Positions 20,064 through 38,395 of a DNA stretch of 64,000 nucleotides are shown here, piece after piece. The position numbers and the translations under genes are program-made. Origin of the DNA: Tubulanus polymorphus (Eukaryota; Nemertea; Palaeonemertea; Tubulaniformes; Tubulanidae). Every line of letters begins with the position of its first letter. The first letter of the stretch is position 1. Where the stretch lies: contig NC_134025.1 in the NCBI RefSeq assembly GCF_964204645.1, positions 29,728,001 through 29,792,000 on the forward strand, written 5' to 3'. Under the pieces are notes generated by a model that saw only the letters and a program-made list of their open reading frames with translations, ran no database searches and had not been told where the DNA came from.

Positions 20064-23000
20064 ATGAAGTTGATCAGACGATCACGCTCAGTGACGATCG
20101 CAGGACGTACGATGACAAGTTCTCCGGCCCCGGGATCGCGGTCGCCTAGTCCGACTGGTCAACTGACCACTGCAGCCGTTCAGACGATCAACACAATACC
20201 TGCAGATATAACAATCGGACCAATCTCGTATGATGTCCACTTCGGCAGACGAATTACTGACCAGTTACTTCATGATTATCTAATCGAGGTAAGAAGCAAA
20301 ACAGTTATATTCAGAAATTGTTTTTTTTTACAATTTTTTAGTTTGAATTCGACAGAAATTAAATGGCAGAAAACTGTGTTATTCTTAATGGAGAATAAAC
20401 TCTTACTCGAAACTTTGGAACCGGATCCAAAAATATACTGCAAATTAATCATAATGAACTTTATTGTCAAAGAATATTAATTCTAGGTAGAGTTAAAATG
20501 ATCTAAATCGTTCTATTGAGTTTGGCTTTTCAAATTTTGTATTTCTTGAACCTAATCGAAGACTTATCTTTATGAATATATTGGGTTGAAAAATCGTTTT
20601 CAAAGCATATTATGTCGTTAAAAAAATTGAAAGTATCATTTTAATTAAACTCAAAATAAGCGTGAATTTATTCAAGTTAGAACAGTTAAAAATCATTTTC
20701 AGTTTCCATTTTATTGCATCCTTAAATCAATTACATATAGAATAAATTGAGATAAACGGAGTGGCTATATAAATAATTGGAGACGAAGGACGATCTTTGT
20801 AATGCGTCAACGAAGAAGATCTTTGAATTTCCTTATAAACTTATCAATGCCTTTTGATAATCGCTTAAACTCGATGAAAAGTTTCCGACGAAACACGCGC
20901 CTTTGCATAATTAGATCTATTTAGGATTTCCGTTTGTTCATTTTCCATCTTCTGAAAAATGCGGCGGCAAAACTTTACTTAAAAAGCCGGCGTCAGTCAA
21001 AACTGAATAAACGAATTGAAAATCGCTTAAAAACGATGGACAACTATTGTTATTCTGCACGAGTCCACTTTCACATTGGAATCCACTTCTGATTCGGTTT
21101 ATGAAGTCACGTCATCAGATTTAATCTGTCGGATTATATGCACTTACTTTGCCTCGATTTGTCGACGACGACAGAATTAACTCGAACAATGATTTACCTA
21201 GGCACACTTCAGGTCTTCTGCAATATTTCAACGGCAACCGAATGAAGAATAAAATAGTTTCTAATAAATAACTTAATTTCTCGTTGAATGGGGACCGCAA
21301 GAGATGCGCGTGTGGTGCACATGTTTAAACGCACGTGATCCCGTTCGTCTCAAGTCAAACTTCAGCGCGAAATTATCATGTGGTGTTTGTCCCACACGAT
21401 CATCTCTTTCCATCTCTTTCCATCTCTCTCTCTTTAACGCGCAAATAAAAAAAAAACCGCTCCCCATTTTATAGATCAGCGAGAATGATTAGGAAAAATC
21501 CTATTAGCAATGAAACCGATAATGGAAAACGATTAATTTGTAATATAGTTATAAGAGGATGATTTTCTGGCAATTCAACTGACAAATTGTGGCCAATATC
21601 CTCAGCGGAAATTCGAATCTTCCAGTATTTAGCTTAACATATGTCAATTAATGTGATTAATTCGATGACGGCAACATTTGGAAAGTTGCATAAACAGTTG
21701 TTTATACCGAACAAAGGTAACAAAAACTTTCATTACGGGTTTCAATGCGTACCTCCAAATTTAGCCGAACAGGGCAATTAAAACGAGAGACTCTCGCTAC
21801 TGAACATACTTGGGAATTTGACAAACGGGTTCTAATAGTTCCTAAAAGAAACTTGAGCGCTAACTTCTCAAATTTCAAGCGTCCTCAAATTTGCGATGAT
21901 TTTAAATTAGTAGTTAAGTTGTTTGTCCGCGAATTACTCTTCAATTAAGTGGTCAAACGTGACGTAATATTATTAGGACTCTTCGCACTTTTGAAAATTT
22001 TGAGAGTGATTTTCTGAAAACCTTTTGTAGCCGCCGAGTTTAAGGATGAATGACAGATCCATTGACGCTGAGGTATTGTTATCATTCCTAGGTGAGGTAC
22101 ACAAATGGGAGGATCTTGACTAAAGACGACCAATCCGAAGAGTGGATCGGGCACGCGCAGGTGGCGCGAGATCGTCACGAGCAGAATATAGAGATCACTA
22201 GAAACAAGGATGGCCACTTGTTCTACCGGTCATTGAAGACTATACAAGCGCCGTCTAAACTTTGTTTCTGGTACAGCGATCAACTAGCAAGAGAAATCGG
22301 TATTCCTGTTCTAACACCCAGACAAATTAAAGGTAAGCTTTGTTTTCATTTCAATTTAAAATGAACGTTAACGATTTTAATCATATATAACAATTCGTAG
22401 AAGTTTTTGAATTTCAAAATTCTTACAATTAGCACAATTAAGATTTTCATCATGAATTGAATCTCTATTTTCAACAATCTCGTGTAACTTTTCATTGAAT
22501 AAATATATGTTATTATTCATATTTTGAGTTGTGAATTAATATTCGGTTCATATTTCTCTCAACAGGTGATCAGACATACTGCTGCGATCGCTGTTTTAAA
22601 TCGTTCCTGTATCCGAACTGTTTAAAATCGCATATGAGATATCACTGTAATTCACCGATGCCTCCCGTTCTCAGTCAACCGACCATTCATCCCGTTCCTG
22701 GACATCATCCACCAATGTCGTTTTCATTCGGTCGAATATCTCCTCCACGTTCCAGTAACAGCGTCTCACCGCACGACATGTCGACACGGTCAGTGATCGG
22801 GGCTCCGCGAGCTGCTGCTGCTGGTGCCATTCAACTCGGAGTGAATTCTGCTTTCGTACCGCCGATACCGCGTATACCAAACCACCACAGTCTACCGCCA
22901 TCAGCTCGTCTCTCGCCGATGAAATCATCTAGTCCGACTACCGCGGGAGACCAAGACGCGAAATTATCCGCAAAAGATTGTCAGCCGATTCAGATCTTCA

Positions 23001-23776
23001 ATCATATCCATCCCCCCGCTCTGATACCGATGGACTATTCAGCTTTGAAATATTATTACCCGTTGTACCAAAGTTTCGCCGCAGCCAGTAGACTGTGCTG
23101 CCCAGCTCCGCAGTCGTGTTCAGTAGCCGGACACTGTTCACATCCTATGCCGCATCCGTACCTATTTCCATTCGGCGCAGCTAATAACAATAATCACGTC
23201 GAAGCGAACCGCCTCACCTCACCCGTTTACAATTCCACTTCTACGAAAACCGAAGAACCACCGTCGACTCGCTTCAAATTCCCGTTACCTTCCGACAAAG
23301 CGGGCGAACCGTTAGATCTGATCCCCAGATCGATGTACATCAGTAAATCCCGAAAAGGACATTTGTGTATTTACTGCGGAAAATTGTACTCCCGTAAATA
23401 CGGACTGAAGATTCATCTCCGCACGCATACAGGTTACAAACCTCTTAAATGTAAGGTTTGTTTGCGACCTTTCGGTGACCCGAGTAACCTAAACAAACAC
23501 ATTCGTCTTCACGCTGAAGGAGACACCCCGTATCGGTGCGACCATTGCGGGAAGGTGCTCGTCAGACGCCGAGATTTGGAACGTCACATCAAATCACGTC
23601 ATCCCAACGAGGCTGAAACCGACAATACAATCAAACCGTTCTCTCACAACAGCGTCGTCGAAACTGAAATAGCGAGTGAAATAAAAATCGAAAATACAAC
23701 CGACGAAATAGAAGATCAGGACAATGAACAGGAAGATACCGACGAAATAATAGACGTTGGAAATGACTTAGAATAA
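20064..23776 (+). CDS. PRDM13: PRDM13, PR-domain zinc-finger transcription regulator, three exons, 558 aa
   Basis: Nuclear regulator of neural cell fate; in vertebrates it acts with PTF1A in dorsal spinal cord and retina. Exons 20064-20288, 22092-22332 and 22566-23776 (1677 bp); all junctions are GT-AG and in phase. An N-terminal PR (SET-like) domain spans about residues 40-152, with EEWIGHAQVARD and LFYRSLKTI followed by FWYSDQLAREIGIP. One finger follows at once (CDRCFKSF...HMRYHC, 162-183, ending His-Cys). A Pro/Ser/His-rich linker leads to three C2H2 fingers at 423-443 (YCGKLYSRKYGLKIH), 451-471 (CLRPFGDPSNLNKH) and 480-501 (CGKVLVRRRDLERHI), then an acidic tail. These fingers match vertebrate PRDM13 almost residue for residue, so identity is firm. 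The frame is open upstream of the chosen ATG as far as 20004, so the start could lie in another exon. A poly(A) signal AATAAA lies at 23990-23995. Confidence 0.95.
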
Positions 23777-30694: not shown

Positions 30695-30845
30695 TTGCTG
30701 CTCGTGCTGCTCGTACTGCTCGTGCTGCTCGTGCTGCTCGTGCTGCTCGTGCTGCTCGTGCTGCTCGTGCTGCTCGTACTGCTCGTGCTGCTCGTACTGC
30801 TCGTACTGCTCGTGCTGCTCGTACTGCTCGTGCTGCTCGTACTGC
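30695..30845. repeat. 9-bp minisatellite, about 16-17 units
   Basis: The unit is (G/A)CTGCTCGT, and the first base alternates between G and A from unit to unit. Because 9 is a multiple of three, no stop codon arises in the frames checked. The plus strand reads as Ala-Arg-Ala/Thr repeats and the minus strand as Glu-Gln-His/Tyr repeats. The flanks look non-coding, so I read it as a minisatellite. A repeat-protein exon is the less likely alternative. Confidence 0.85.
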
Positions 30846-32897: not shown

Positions 32898-35082
32898 TCA
32901 GGATACTGATTTGAGCACCATTAACTTGATAAGTACAGATACAATATGAACATTAAGGCTGTTTCCGAGAGTTCGATATTTCTGTTTAACCGTTACATTC
33001 TGAGGGAAGTCTGCAAAATTAGAGGAAACAAACAGAAAATATTTAATCAGAAATGCAAGCATTTTAATAACAAACAGAACGAATAAACATGGGGTGAAAT
33101 TTACCGAAATCAGCAGGGAAACACATCAGTCTAGCGATTTCTTCTGGAGTAAAAAATCGTAGTTTGAATTTTTTCAATTGTTGAAAATCATTAGGATCGA
33201 TAGTTTTATCTCTGTTACCGTCGTAGATATCCTGAAAATATCATAAACAATTCACTGAATGTATCGAACAGTTTCTCAAAATAATGTACATAAAACTATA
33301 GGAATAGCCTACATTAAATACCTTTTCATCAGCCATCTGTATAACAGAACCAGAGCCATCTAATTTATGTCCATATCTGAAATAAAGTGTCGAGTGTAGA
33401 GACCCTTCAAATAGTACATACACCTCCGTGGGGGAGGGGGGTCTAAAATTTACAACTTCACCCTAATATCAGGGAAGAAGTTCCATATATACTATTTGAC
33501 TAGTCCCATATACGGGTAAATGGGTGCAGTGCAAAAAGATGCACGGCATCTTTGAAATCAGGACCCGGTTCAACAGTTCTTAATTCAAACATTGAAAATG
33601 GATAAAACTCGGACAATGTGGAACTGGTTTCACTGTTACATCTCACCCTTTAGTGAAACAGCAACATTTTCTAGAGTCTGGTTTTACAATATCCATAGCC
33701 ATAAAATGTCGTAGATGATTTTCGGTTAACATAGACGAACTCAAGTCACCGCTATCACTTCCAACGACCAAAAATTCACTTAGTTTCTGACAGTATTTTG
33801 TATATTTTTCCAGATCTTTCTCGACTAATACAGAAGGTGTCAAGGTCGTAAGAATGTCTCCTGCTGAAGTATGATTAGTACTGTCTGATAATTGTTTATC
33901 ACTAATAACGTTTCTATGTTTCAACAGATGATGAAAATCGTCTGGAATATCGGTCCAAATCTAGAAAATAAGAAATTGAGTCAAAATTCAATAATCTAAA
34001 AGTTAATTGAAGCTATGACGTTTTGACTGTTTCCAAAAACAGCCATCATCAAATGGAATGATGAATAAAAGAAATAGATGAAAATGAGGAATCTTAATCT
34101 TCTCCATAGATTCGATATCTATTCATAAATTTACCTCTGATTTCGTGGAAAAAGGAAACTGCATCGGTTTTAATTTCGCAATCAGAAAATAACGAAGTCG
34201 ATTGTTCGGAATTCCAAATTGAAGAGGGGTTAATAAAAATTCCTGAAAAAAATACCAGGTGATTTTCACTGTATAATGAATGATAAATTCACCAGCGATC
34301 TGTTGAATTTTAGACCGTTAATCAATGAGTAACTTTCATCAATTTACCTGATAATGATAATTATTCTCCTCGAGCATTTGAATCAATTTACCATGCGCTT
34401 CAGACGTTTCAAATCCTTTCACATTTTCGATTAAGATATACGACGGCTTTTTCTTGAACCTACAGAAAGATAAATAGATGATCTATGGATTACATCAATT
34501 AGGTTTAAGTTTGAGCTAATTGGAAATAAAACGACAAACTGCACCTGGGTATAGATTCTAGTAGATGTAAGAATGGTTTCGATCGAATATCATCAACATC
34601 TTTTTTCAATCCCTGGCGAGTGAATGGTTGACAAGGTGGACTCATTAGTATCATATCAGCTGCCCATTTATCAAAGTCTTCTACAGGAATCGCCTGAAAA
34701 TAAGAGAATAATCATTTGATTAATAATCTGTAGGTTTGTCGGACGTAGCGTTACTCGACCAGCTACGTACCTCGATACATCTAGCAATCAGCTTTATCTC
34801 TGGAAAATTATGAGTGTAAATTTCTTGAGCCACAGAATTCAGATCCATAGCCGCGCAAACTTCAAATAAAAAACCACTTTCTGTAAAAAATAATAAGGGG
34901 GAGGTGTAAACAGCCACATTTTAACGTATTCAATGAATGTCAGCTTAAATCCCAAACATGATAGCATTCTTAAAAGTTTGATATTACATTTGAATACCTT
35001 TCAAAGCATAATGCATTCCTCCGATACCGCTAAATAGCTCCAAAACCTTCAGTTTTGAAATTTTATTCATTTTTTGGGCCAT
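32898..35082 (-). CDS. TRDMT1: TRDMT1 (DNMT2), tRNA cytosine-5 methyltransferase, nine exons, 390 aa
   Basis: Transfers methyl from S-adenosylmethionine to cytosine 38 of tRNA-Asp and a few other tRNAs. Exons 5' to 3' on the minus strand: 34998-35082, 34771-34880, 34545-34693, 34348-34459, 34135-34242, 33647-33960, 33322-33376, 33105-33231, 32898-33010. They sum to 1173 bp with all phases matching. Visible motifs are the SAM-binding [13 protein letters not shown], catalytic [10 protein letters not shown] (C86), ENVKGFE, the [11 protein letters not shown] block, the DNMT2 hallmark CCFTKGYG, and the C-terminal [11 protein letters not shown] and [13 protein letters not shown]. Length is almost the same as human DNMT2 (391 aa) and nothing is truncated. 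The gene is head-to-head with the LRRC73-like gene, 547 bp between start codons. Confidence 0.95.
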
Positions 35083-35629
35083 AATGTGCCTCCACGATTA
35101 CCTTTATATCGCACGGGATATGCGGATGTGGGTAAACTACAGCGAAATTGAAAATTTTCGGAGCCACCCTGTGTTCATTCATTCAGTCCATGGTCTAACG
35201 CTATATTATTGGTGCCTTCCGTCGATCCGAAAGAAGCACCGTGAATGACAGTTCGGACACGGTTGAATGATGTTCGTAGTTTCGTTAACAGTTCCTTCGA
35301 GTTAATTAACAGATAAAAGTAACCAGCCCCTGCTCCCTATACCTCGCTACCTCGGAGCCGTCTGACTCCAGCGCTGAATAATTAAAAAACAGCGGAAAAA
35401 GTATTATTTGATTGAAGAAGTAAGTTTCACAAGACGACAAGTGCTTTTTAAAGTCAGTCAATGGCCATTCTTGTTGGCAAACTGAAACTCACAATTCCAT
35501 TCTACCAGTTACGTGGGTAATGTTAATACGACACCCTTAATATGACTTATTTATTATAACTTATTTCTCATTGACAGGTTTCATTGACAGGTTCTGATAC
35601 TGTAGTTCTGGAAGTCGTCTCAGTCAGTC
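35083..35629. promoter_or_regulatory. Shared divergent promoter region and 5' UTR intron, TRDMT1/LRRC73-like
   Basis: These 547 bp separate two divergent start codons, so both promoters must lie here unless far exons exist. On the plus side a donor (GAAGAA|GTAAGTTT, GT at 35420) and a pyrimidine-rich acceptor ending TTGACAG (35577 or 35590) suggest a 5' UTR intron. That leaves about 300 bp of likely core promoter. No TATA box is obvious in that part. Confidence 0.5.
35568..35593 (+). repeat. Exact 13-bp tandem duplication over a splice acceptor
   Basis: TCATTGACAGGTT occurs twice with no gap (35568-35580 and 35581-35593). Each copy ends in a usable CAG|G acceptor for the proposed 5' UTR intron of the LRRC73-like gene. 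Confidence 0.8.
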
Positions 35630-38246
35630 ATGGACGATGATAACAGTAATTTATACTTCAGTCGTGAGACTATCACGGCTGATGACGTAGATACAATCTG
35701 TACAGCTTTAGAAAGTCATTCGGTGCAGATTTTAACTCTGCGAAAATGTGAAATAGAAGATCACGATTTTAAACGAATGATGAAATCGTTTCGTAAATGT
35801 CGCTCATTGCTTCAACTCGGACTTCTCGAAGGAATGCTTAATTCGGTCGATCGTCTGAAAATTTTATCTAAAGCGATTTTTAAAAATCAGAACCTCAGGA
35901 CTTTATAGTAAGTATCGGGAGAACTGGTTGAAATGTTCAGATTCTGGGAACAAATGATGTATTAATTGTTTTCTGTTTATAGTATTCCAGGTTCTGATAT
36001 TGGAGATGAAAACTGTGGTTTATTGATTAAAGCCTTAGCCGAACATCCTAACATCGTTTCACTTGATTTAGCTGAGTGTCAACTGGGTGATATAGCCGTG
36101 AAATATCTGTGCGATTTACTGCCTCCTGATAAAGAAAAACTAGGTATTTCACTCATATCATATCTTATATCATTCCAGTACGGTGGAAACCTCTTCATTG
36201 AGATTAATTGTTAGATGAGTTAGTTCGGGAACATTGACATATATGTCCATGGTTTCCACAGTGCTGGTGAATGAGGAAAAAACTTGGGAATTTTAAAATG
36301 ATATTTCCCAGTTTGGAAATATTCGGGAATTTTATCAATTTTCCTCTAATCCGAACTTGGGAAATTCATTCTCAATGGAATTATGTTTTGTAATATTTTC
36401 TAGGTCTAAGTGAATTGAGTTTGAGTAATAATCTGGCTATAACGAGTAAAGGTTGGACGAAGTTATTCATCGCGCTGGCCGCCAGTAGTTCTCTGAGAGT
36501 TCTGAAATTAGATAATAACACTATTGAAGATCACGGTGCTGGATGTTTGGCTGTCGCGATGGCTGCAAATCCTGAATTGCAGATACTGGACGTACGGAAT
36601 ACCGGTATAAGCAGCCGTGGTGCTAAGGTAGGTTCATATACCTGGTGATGGTTCAACCTTATAGTTCAGGGCCCAGTTTCACAAAAAGTTTAACTCAAAT
36701 TTTTGGTGTAATTGCCAATGGTTACTTCATGTTTTCAATGAGGACAATAATTCAAACTTAACCGTTTTAGGCTTAAACTTTTTCGTGAAACTGGGCTCTG
36801 TGCAGTAAACTCAGTTTTTTTTGGAAAGTAAATTCCGAGGTAATTTGAACGATGAGTGGTCTTAACACATTCACAACTTTTTGTCAACTTTTTCAGTTCT
36901 TCCTGAATCTGCTGAATAATTATCCGTCATACCTGAAATCATTGAAACTCAGTGAAAACGACATCAAAGAGAAAACGTTAGATGAAATTAATAAATGTCT
37001 AGAACAAGAGGAGGAGGCGAGACGATCGTGTATGCAACCACAAAAACAAGATTCATCCGACGAAGAAACTGAAACTATAAACGAAGAAGTCATGACTGAA
37101 GTGAAATCTGAAAACGTAATGGCCGGACTGAAACCTAAAGATAAAAAGAAAGATAAGAACGATAGTCAGTATAATTACTACAGTGCCTGGGGACAGCCAC
37201 CTCCTATGCCTACCTCATACGGTTTGTTTGATTCGCAGAGTTACGGTGGGGCGGCTCCGGGTATGGTTTCTAATGTACCTAGCGCTCCGCCGGGGTATGG
37301 CGCCGGAGGGTTCGTGTATCCGGAATCAGCCTCTAACACGTACGGGGCGTCTCGGTATAATTCAGGGGGTAGTTATGGGTATGATCAGATGGGATATGGA
37401 AGCTCGACGGCATATGGGAATTATGGCCAGTACGGTTACGGATTCACCCCTACTCAGCCACCATACAGCGGTAGCTCACAACCGTCGTACGGTGGCTCAG
37501 CAGGGTATGGTGGCTCGGGGTATGGTGGCTCGGGTTATGGTGGTACCTCGGGGTATGGTAGCTCAGGGTATGGAGGGACAACGCCCTATTCGACTAGTGG
37601 TTATGGAGGTGGGTCCGGTTCTTACAAGGGAACTAGTTCTTATGGCGCTACTTCACCTTACACTAAACCCAGCGATACTAAATACACAGACACCAGTAAT
37701 AAAGAGGACAAAACTGCTTACAATCGCGGACAGACGGACAGTTATTCGGATAAGAAAAATATTCATGACAGGTTAGATTCTGATCGGTATTCTAGAGGTG
37801 GAACGGGAAGTCAGTTTAGCGACAGTAGCCATCTTGGAAAATATACAAACATAAGCGGAAAAACTGATACGACATCTAAAGATCCGGTATCGTACGGGAC
37901 TAGTGGATCGGTGTCTCCTCGAGTGAATACAACATCCGCGACACCCGATGAAGTTATTGAACCTAGTATTGTGTCTCGCGGTACCAAGAAAGATACGGAT
38001 AAATCGAAAAGCAACGAACGATCGAACGTTCTGAAAATGTTTGAAGAGTTGATGAAAGCCGATGCAACCGATGATGACCTTGACGCGATGAAAAGGCGAT
38101 TGAATATTGCGACGCCTCCGAAAGTGCGCGATATAGAAGCGGACTTCCAGAGAGGTAGGGTGGTTCCTATGATGAGAGGTAGACCGAGTAAAAAGAAACA
38201 TCTCGGAACAATTGACTCATTATCAGACAGTGACAGCGACATGTGA
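35630..38246 (+). CDS. LRRC73: LRRC73-like leucine-rich-repeat protein with a Gly/Tyr/Ser-rich tail, 670 aa
   Basis: Exons 35630-35907, 35983-36143, 36404-36627 and 36897-38246 (2013 bp, phases consistent). Residues 1 to about 250 are ribonuclease-inhibitor-type leucine-rich repeats that align along their length with vertebrate LRRC73 (NOD3L): LTLRKCEIEDHDFKRMM, AEHPNIVSLDLAECQLGD, ITSKGWTKLFIALA, LRVLKLDNNTIEDHGAG, NNYPSYLKSLKLSEND. The function of that protein is poorly known. Vertebrate LRRC73 is about 316 aa and ends soon after the repeats. Here the last LRR exon runs on through a charged stretch (about 250-312), a low-complexity GYGGSGYGGTSGYG-type region (about 313-480), a Ser/Asp/Lys-rich linker, a possible helical segment (FEELMKADATDDDLDAMKRR), a basic patch RGRPSKKKH and a final SDSDSDM. 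The tail resembles FET-family prion-like domains in composition, so condensate formation is an inference. Confidence 0.88.
36669..36798. mobile_element. MITE family B, copy in LRRC73-like intron 3
   Basis: The ends GGGCCCAGTTTCACAAAAAG and CTTTTTCGTGAAACTGGGCTC are inverted copies. The interior (TACTTCATGTTTTCAATGAG, TTAACCGTTTTAGGC) recurs in reverse orientation at 46501-46628, so the two are members of one dispersed family. It fills about half of the 269-bp intron. Confidence 0.8.
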
Positions 38247-38284: not shown

Positions 38285-38395
38285 CAGGGGAACCTCGTTA
38301 CAACGAACTTCAAGGGAACATCTGTTCATTCAGTATGGAATTATTTAAAATCCTAGGTTTGTAATAACCAATAAATCGTCATAATGAGGTTCCAC
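38285..38395. mobile_element. Tigger/pogo-like MITE in the LRRC73-like 3' UTR
   Basis: It starts CAGGGGAACCTCGTTACAACGA, ends with the inverted CGTCATAATGAGGTTCCAC, and is bordered by TA on both sides (38283-38284 and 38396-38397). The end sequence resembles the CAGTGGAACCTCG ends I associate with pogo/Tigger elements. It lies 39 bases after the stop codon and contains an AATAAA at 38370-38375. Confidence 0.7.

Follow-up and report, generated by a model that had tools for sequence, protein, structure and literature searches.

A presumed LRRC73 orthologue of Tubulanus polymorphus with a Gly/Tyr/Ser-rich low-complexity tail encoded in its last exon

The window, a stretch of 64,000 nucleotides from the Tubulanus polymorphus genome, contains at 35630-38246 on the plus strand a four-exon gene that encodes 670 residues in a joined frame open throughout, with GT-AG boundaries at all introns. 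Its last exon carries both the last of the leucine-rich repeats (LRRs) and a long tail with a domain rich in Gly, Tyr and Ser. We give about an even chance to the reading that this is a single-copy animal gene for an LRR protein of the cytosol or the cilium, most likely the orthologue of LRRC73, and that growth of its last exon has added a disordered, self-associating C-terminal region. The assignment to LRRC73 is presumptive. Human LRRC73, also named C6orf154 or NOD3L, has about 316 residues, and we expect the vertebrate protein to share with the window protein an LRR body of the RNase-inhibitor type and an acidic end behind it; neither human nor other vertebrate LRRC73 is known to carry the Gly/Tyr/Ser domain.

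Gene structure and the LRR body

Exon 4 opens behind an AG acceptor (GTCAACTTTTTCAG/TTC) and reads as a single frame of 450 codons, the last of them the TGA stop (Table 1). None of 300 Markov sequences with the composition of this exon was open over such a length, the longest open run being 136 codons, so the length of the frame is not a product of chance. The exon begins with residue 222 and the best stretch for the Pfam model LRR_1 lies at residues 234-255, which places the last repeat and the low-complexity tail on one exon, as an earlier note on this DNA had claimed. Splicing of exon 2 at its weak donor is suggested by the frame and by homology; no signal peptide is evident by eye at the start of exon 1.

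Residues 1 to about 258 consist of RNase-inhibitor-type LRRs, that is, tandem repeats of 28-29 residues recognised by LRR models (LRR_6, 56.7 bits with a cut-off of 23.4; LRR_1, 25.9 bits with a cut-off of 20.6). Amongst chains in the PDB, RNase inhibitor is nearest to this part (E 3.7e-14), with further matches to LRRC34 and radial spoke protein 15 (both within E 1e-11 to 2e-12) and to NLRP proteins; the solved structures matched do not include LRRC73. The genome assembly searched comprises 77 contigs with a total of 268 Mb and yielded no mitochondrial COX1. Its nearest paralogue of the LRR part (C8:10566028; L006, 1495-2199, minus strand) matches at 39% over 112 residues (E 2e-13) and stops at NHLQNR without any tail. 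The genome holds no closer relative of the LRR protein than this one, the single-match situation looked for in an LRRC73 orthologue.

Head-to-head with the LRR gene, at about 33600-35085 on the minus strand, lies a C-5 cytosine methylase gene (PF00145, E 2e-18), which we take from a protein motif to be probably TRDMT1/DNMT2. Its start lies some 550 bp upstream of that of the LRR gene, and a shared promoter is therefore possible. Scanning of this region (35000-35640) for the RFX X-box yielded only sites with one mismatch at the background rate, and a second X-box pattern had no match there, so that cis-regulation lends no support to ciliary expression. Elsewhere in the window we observed a C2H2 zinc-finger protein exon, possibly PRDM-like (22535-23776, plus strand), and a 9-bp tandem repeat at 30696-30845 (16.7 copies, 93% identity) whose minus-strand frame reads as repeated EQHEQY/EQHEQH.

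Table 1. Features of the LRR gene and of the tail encoded by its last exon (window positions).
Feature	Position	Strand	Evidence and remarks
Exon 1	35630..35907	+	Start codon (MDDDNSNLYF...) and first LRRs, residues 1-92; donor ATA/GTAAGT
Exon 2	35983..36143	+	LRRs, residues ~93-146; acceptor TTTATAG; weak donor TAG/GTATTT (3.4 bits)
Exon 3	36404..36627	+	LRRs, residues 147-221; donor AAG/GTAGGT (10.1 bits)
Exon 4	36897..38246	+	See text
5' part of exon 4 with the last LRR and the helix after it, residues 222-265	36897..37028	+	Pfam LRR_1; helices at exon residues 2-45
Linker, first acidic and then basic, residues 266-312	37029..37169	+	43% charged
Gly/Tyr/Ser low-complexity domain, residues 313-480	37170..37673	+	Composition, spacing; AlphaFold2 single-sequence pLDDT 32-42, without secondary structure
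15-bp tandem repeat (GGGTATGGTGGCTCG, encodes GYGGS), within the Gly/Tyr/Ser domain	37503..37573	+	TRF: 4.5 copies, 83% matches, 71 bp
Ser/Thr-rich charged disordered stretch, residues 481-590	37674..38003	+	Composition, AlphaFold2
Predicted helical C-terminal segment, residues 592-638	38007..38147	+	Three helices, low confidence, without Pfam or PDB relative
Basic RGRPSKKKH, residues 648-656	38175..38201	+	Read from translation
Acidic C-terminus SDSDSDM, residues 664-670, then TGA	38223..38243	+	Read from translation
Putative polyadenylation signal (AATAAA)	38367..38374	+	~125 bp 3' of the stop

Composition of the tail and its likeness to FET proteins

The earlier note had delimited the Gly/Tyr/Ser domain at residues 313-480, which is the right range, and the basic and acidic ends are present as it described them. 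The 168 residues of the domain are 26% Gly, 18% Ser and 17% Tyr with only 4% charged residues, Gln and Asn contributing 3.6% and 3.0% (6.6% together), and entropy falls to 2.4 bits per 60-residue window. Aromatic residues make up 19% (28 Tyr, evenly spread, 3 Phe and 1 Trp). The motif [GS]Y[GS] occurs 14 times as compared to 5.4 +/- 2.1 in shuffled sequences (2.6-fold), a count reached in 1 of 5000 shuffles, and not one of 3000 shuffles had its aromatics as evenly spaced; the 15-bp array feeds both of these statistics, and the pattern continues on either side of it. Tandem repetition at the DNA level, as detected by TRF, is limited to this array, while all six Ser codons (20 TCN, 11 AGY) and all four Gly codons are used. 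Such mixed codon usage across the domain shows that the Gly/Tyr/Ser bias is one of the protein rather than the product of simple DNA repetition.

By composition, the domain falls into the class of prion-like low-complexity domains, which are uncharged and combine aromatic stickers with polar spacers; it lacks the high Gln/Asn content of yeast-type prion domains. The earlier note had gone further and likened it to the domains of FUS and EWS. This likeness holds for composition and aromatic spacing, both of which conform to the rules published for phase-separating prion-like domains (PLDs). It does not extend to membership of the FET family, defined by an RRM, a RanBP zinc finger and RGG repeats: besides the low Gln/Asn content, Pfam gave no RRM or zinc finger match in exon 4 or in the LRR part, the window protein has one RGG only and no R-x(2-5)-PY signal, and phmmer found no solved chain related to the tail, even at E 10. 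Judged from its residues, the domain fits a grammar of "tyrosine stickers, polar spacers" and is FET-like by composition only. In the PLDs of FUS and ARID1A, the number of Tyr is the main determinant of condensation and Gln a minor one (PMC10850361); PLD variants described in eLife span aromatic fractions of 0.19-0.43, and dispersed aromatics favour condensation (PMC11820118). The domain in the window holds a single Arg, which, together with the lack of an RGG partner array, may lower condensation. GYG-rich tails are also able to serve in solid structural materials.

The AlphaFold2 model, built without an alignment, is poor (mean pLDDT 44); the low pLDDT of the tail agrees with disorder without proving it, and the model otherwise gives only weak C-terminal helices. 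RGRPSKKKH is a possible nuclear signal or AT-hook-like core.

Occurrence of the tail and of GYGG motifs in the genome

Searched against the genome, the exon-4 protein and, separately, its last 80 residues each match only themselves. The absence of a second match to either speaks against a fusion that involved a neighbour or a duplicate gene, and the wording of a "fusion" in the earlier note cannot be kept, as the genome yielded no donor gene for the tail; growth of the terminal exon is an at least as likely origin. Capture from a FET gene was also rejected: the RanBP zinc-finger hits examined (L040, L042, L044, L047) have no FET-like Gly/Tyr-rich frame alongside in the flanking DNA covered, a result that does not show a FET gene to be absent. 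The prokaryote contigs, scanned for stray animal DNA, contained none.

A DNA pattern for GYGGxGYG matched 45 times in the genome compared to 5 times for the reversed control, at few loci: the window gene, a tandem cluster on C6 at about 20.66-20.68 Mb, clusters on C9 at about 0.57, 0.58, 1.75 and 1.76 Mb, and C9 at 8.03 Mb. In this genome the window gene stands alone in joining the GYGG motif to an LRR protein, not in having the motif. The C6 genes (C6:20660000-20678500; L030, L034) encode long arrays of GYGGS and EESYGG with PT-rich ends, and their products are likely structural or secreted proteins, homogenised among the copies. At 0.58 and 1.75 Mb on C9 (L031, L032) lie genes for glycine/tyrosine-rich proteins of a GYGGAGYGGG type, possibly of the extracellular matrix. 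The locus at C9:8.03 Mb is an hnRNP-A-like gene; some of its exons encode RGG and GYGG, and it matches the RRM model weakly, below the cut-off.

Possible roles of the tail and comparison with known systems

In the reading we prefer, the last exon of an LRRC73-type gene would have lengthened and come to encode a disordered C-terminus. The solenoid of LRRs would bind a specific partner and the domain of Tyr stickers and Gly/Ser spacers would provide weak multivalent self- and cross-association, through which the protein would be concentrated or localised at the bases of cilia, at rootlets or at assembly foci in the cytoplasm. Human LRRC73, a protein without functional annotation, stains motile cilia and rootlets (PMC12772120), which favours a ciliary LRR scaffold and, for the tail, a role as in LRRC56, a ciliary LRR protein whose axoneme and basal-body localisation is lost on removal of its long disordered C-terminus (PMC12755065). 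In motile-cilium assembly, dynein preassembly takes place in liquid-like particles, the DynAPs (PMC6349401). By title, none of 22 papers that name LRRC73 deals with its evolution or with tails. A more ambitious version, in which the LRRC73 orthologue gained in this lineage a conserved PLD of FET grammar, so that what had been a ciliary LRR scaffold now forms condensates at ciliary bases or assembly foci, seems to us unlikely.

It is possible, if somewhat doubtful, that the tail is a near-neutral, fast-evolving disordered extension that arose by codon-level slippage in the terminal exon and has no dedicated condensate function. The GYGGS-encoding repeat at the core of the tail would fit such an origin, as would the absence of a PDB or Pfam relative and of a second copy in the genome, and disordered C-termini are common among ciliary LRR proteins, LRRC56 being an example. 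However, the Tyr spacing and [GS]Y[GS] content reach well past the repeat, in mixed Ser and Gly codons, and a frame of 670 residues with a predicted helical end has stayed open. Considerably less probable is a nuclear or RNA-associated condensate protein in which the FET-like domain together with RGRPSKKKH would form a scaffold in nuclear or RNP bodies: a second basic patch, KPKDKKKDK, accompanies the C-terminal one, and the composition is in common with that of the hnRNP-A-like gene on C9, but no RNA-binding domain and only a lone RGG were found in the protein, and human LRRC73 is seen in cilia and rootlets (PMC12772120).

Splicing within the exon could also, in principle, make part of the tail an exitron, whose removal would leave a short main protein similar in this to vertebrate LRRC73. 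GGGTATGG and similar repeats do resemble donors, the best internal one (37609, 10.3 bits) equalling the best real donor, and acceptor-like sites occur at 37458, 37469 and 37673. Yet the frame is open throughout exon 4, and joining the strongest donor to the acceptor at 37673 would lose 64 bases and shift the frame. We regard the exitron reading as very improbable.

Returning to an LRRC73-type protein with a self-associating tail, its interest hinges on conservation among relatives: an unconserved tail would be an ordinary, rapidly evolving C-terminus, whereas a lineage carrying LRRC73 with a built-in sticker-and-spacer domain would offer a natural experiment on the clustering of LRRC73 partners and would add to the evidence that ciliary LRR proteins act partly via disordered tails.

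With the PLDs of the FET proteins (FUS, EWSR1, TAF15) and of hnRNP A1, the domain has in common that it is Tyr-rich, Gly/Ser-rich and almost uncharged with evenly spaced aromatics; in contrast to these proteins, no RRM, RanBP zinc finger or RGG array was found in the window protein, which is poor in Gln/Asn and carries the domain behind its LRRs. Two axonemal LRR proteins, radial spoke protein 15 and LRRC34, share LRR similarity with it, although this likeness is of a generic kind and no better than that to RNase inhibitor. LRRC56 (ODA8) of the motile cilium resembles it in layout, its LRR domain preceding a long disordered C-terminus; we claim no sequence relation, and Gly/Tyr/Ser richness of the LRRC56 tail is not described in the source (PMC12755065). 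The window protein is best placed in a known kind, the LRR proteins with a disordered, compositionally prion-like C-terminus, of which it is at most a variant.
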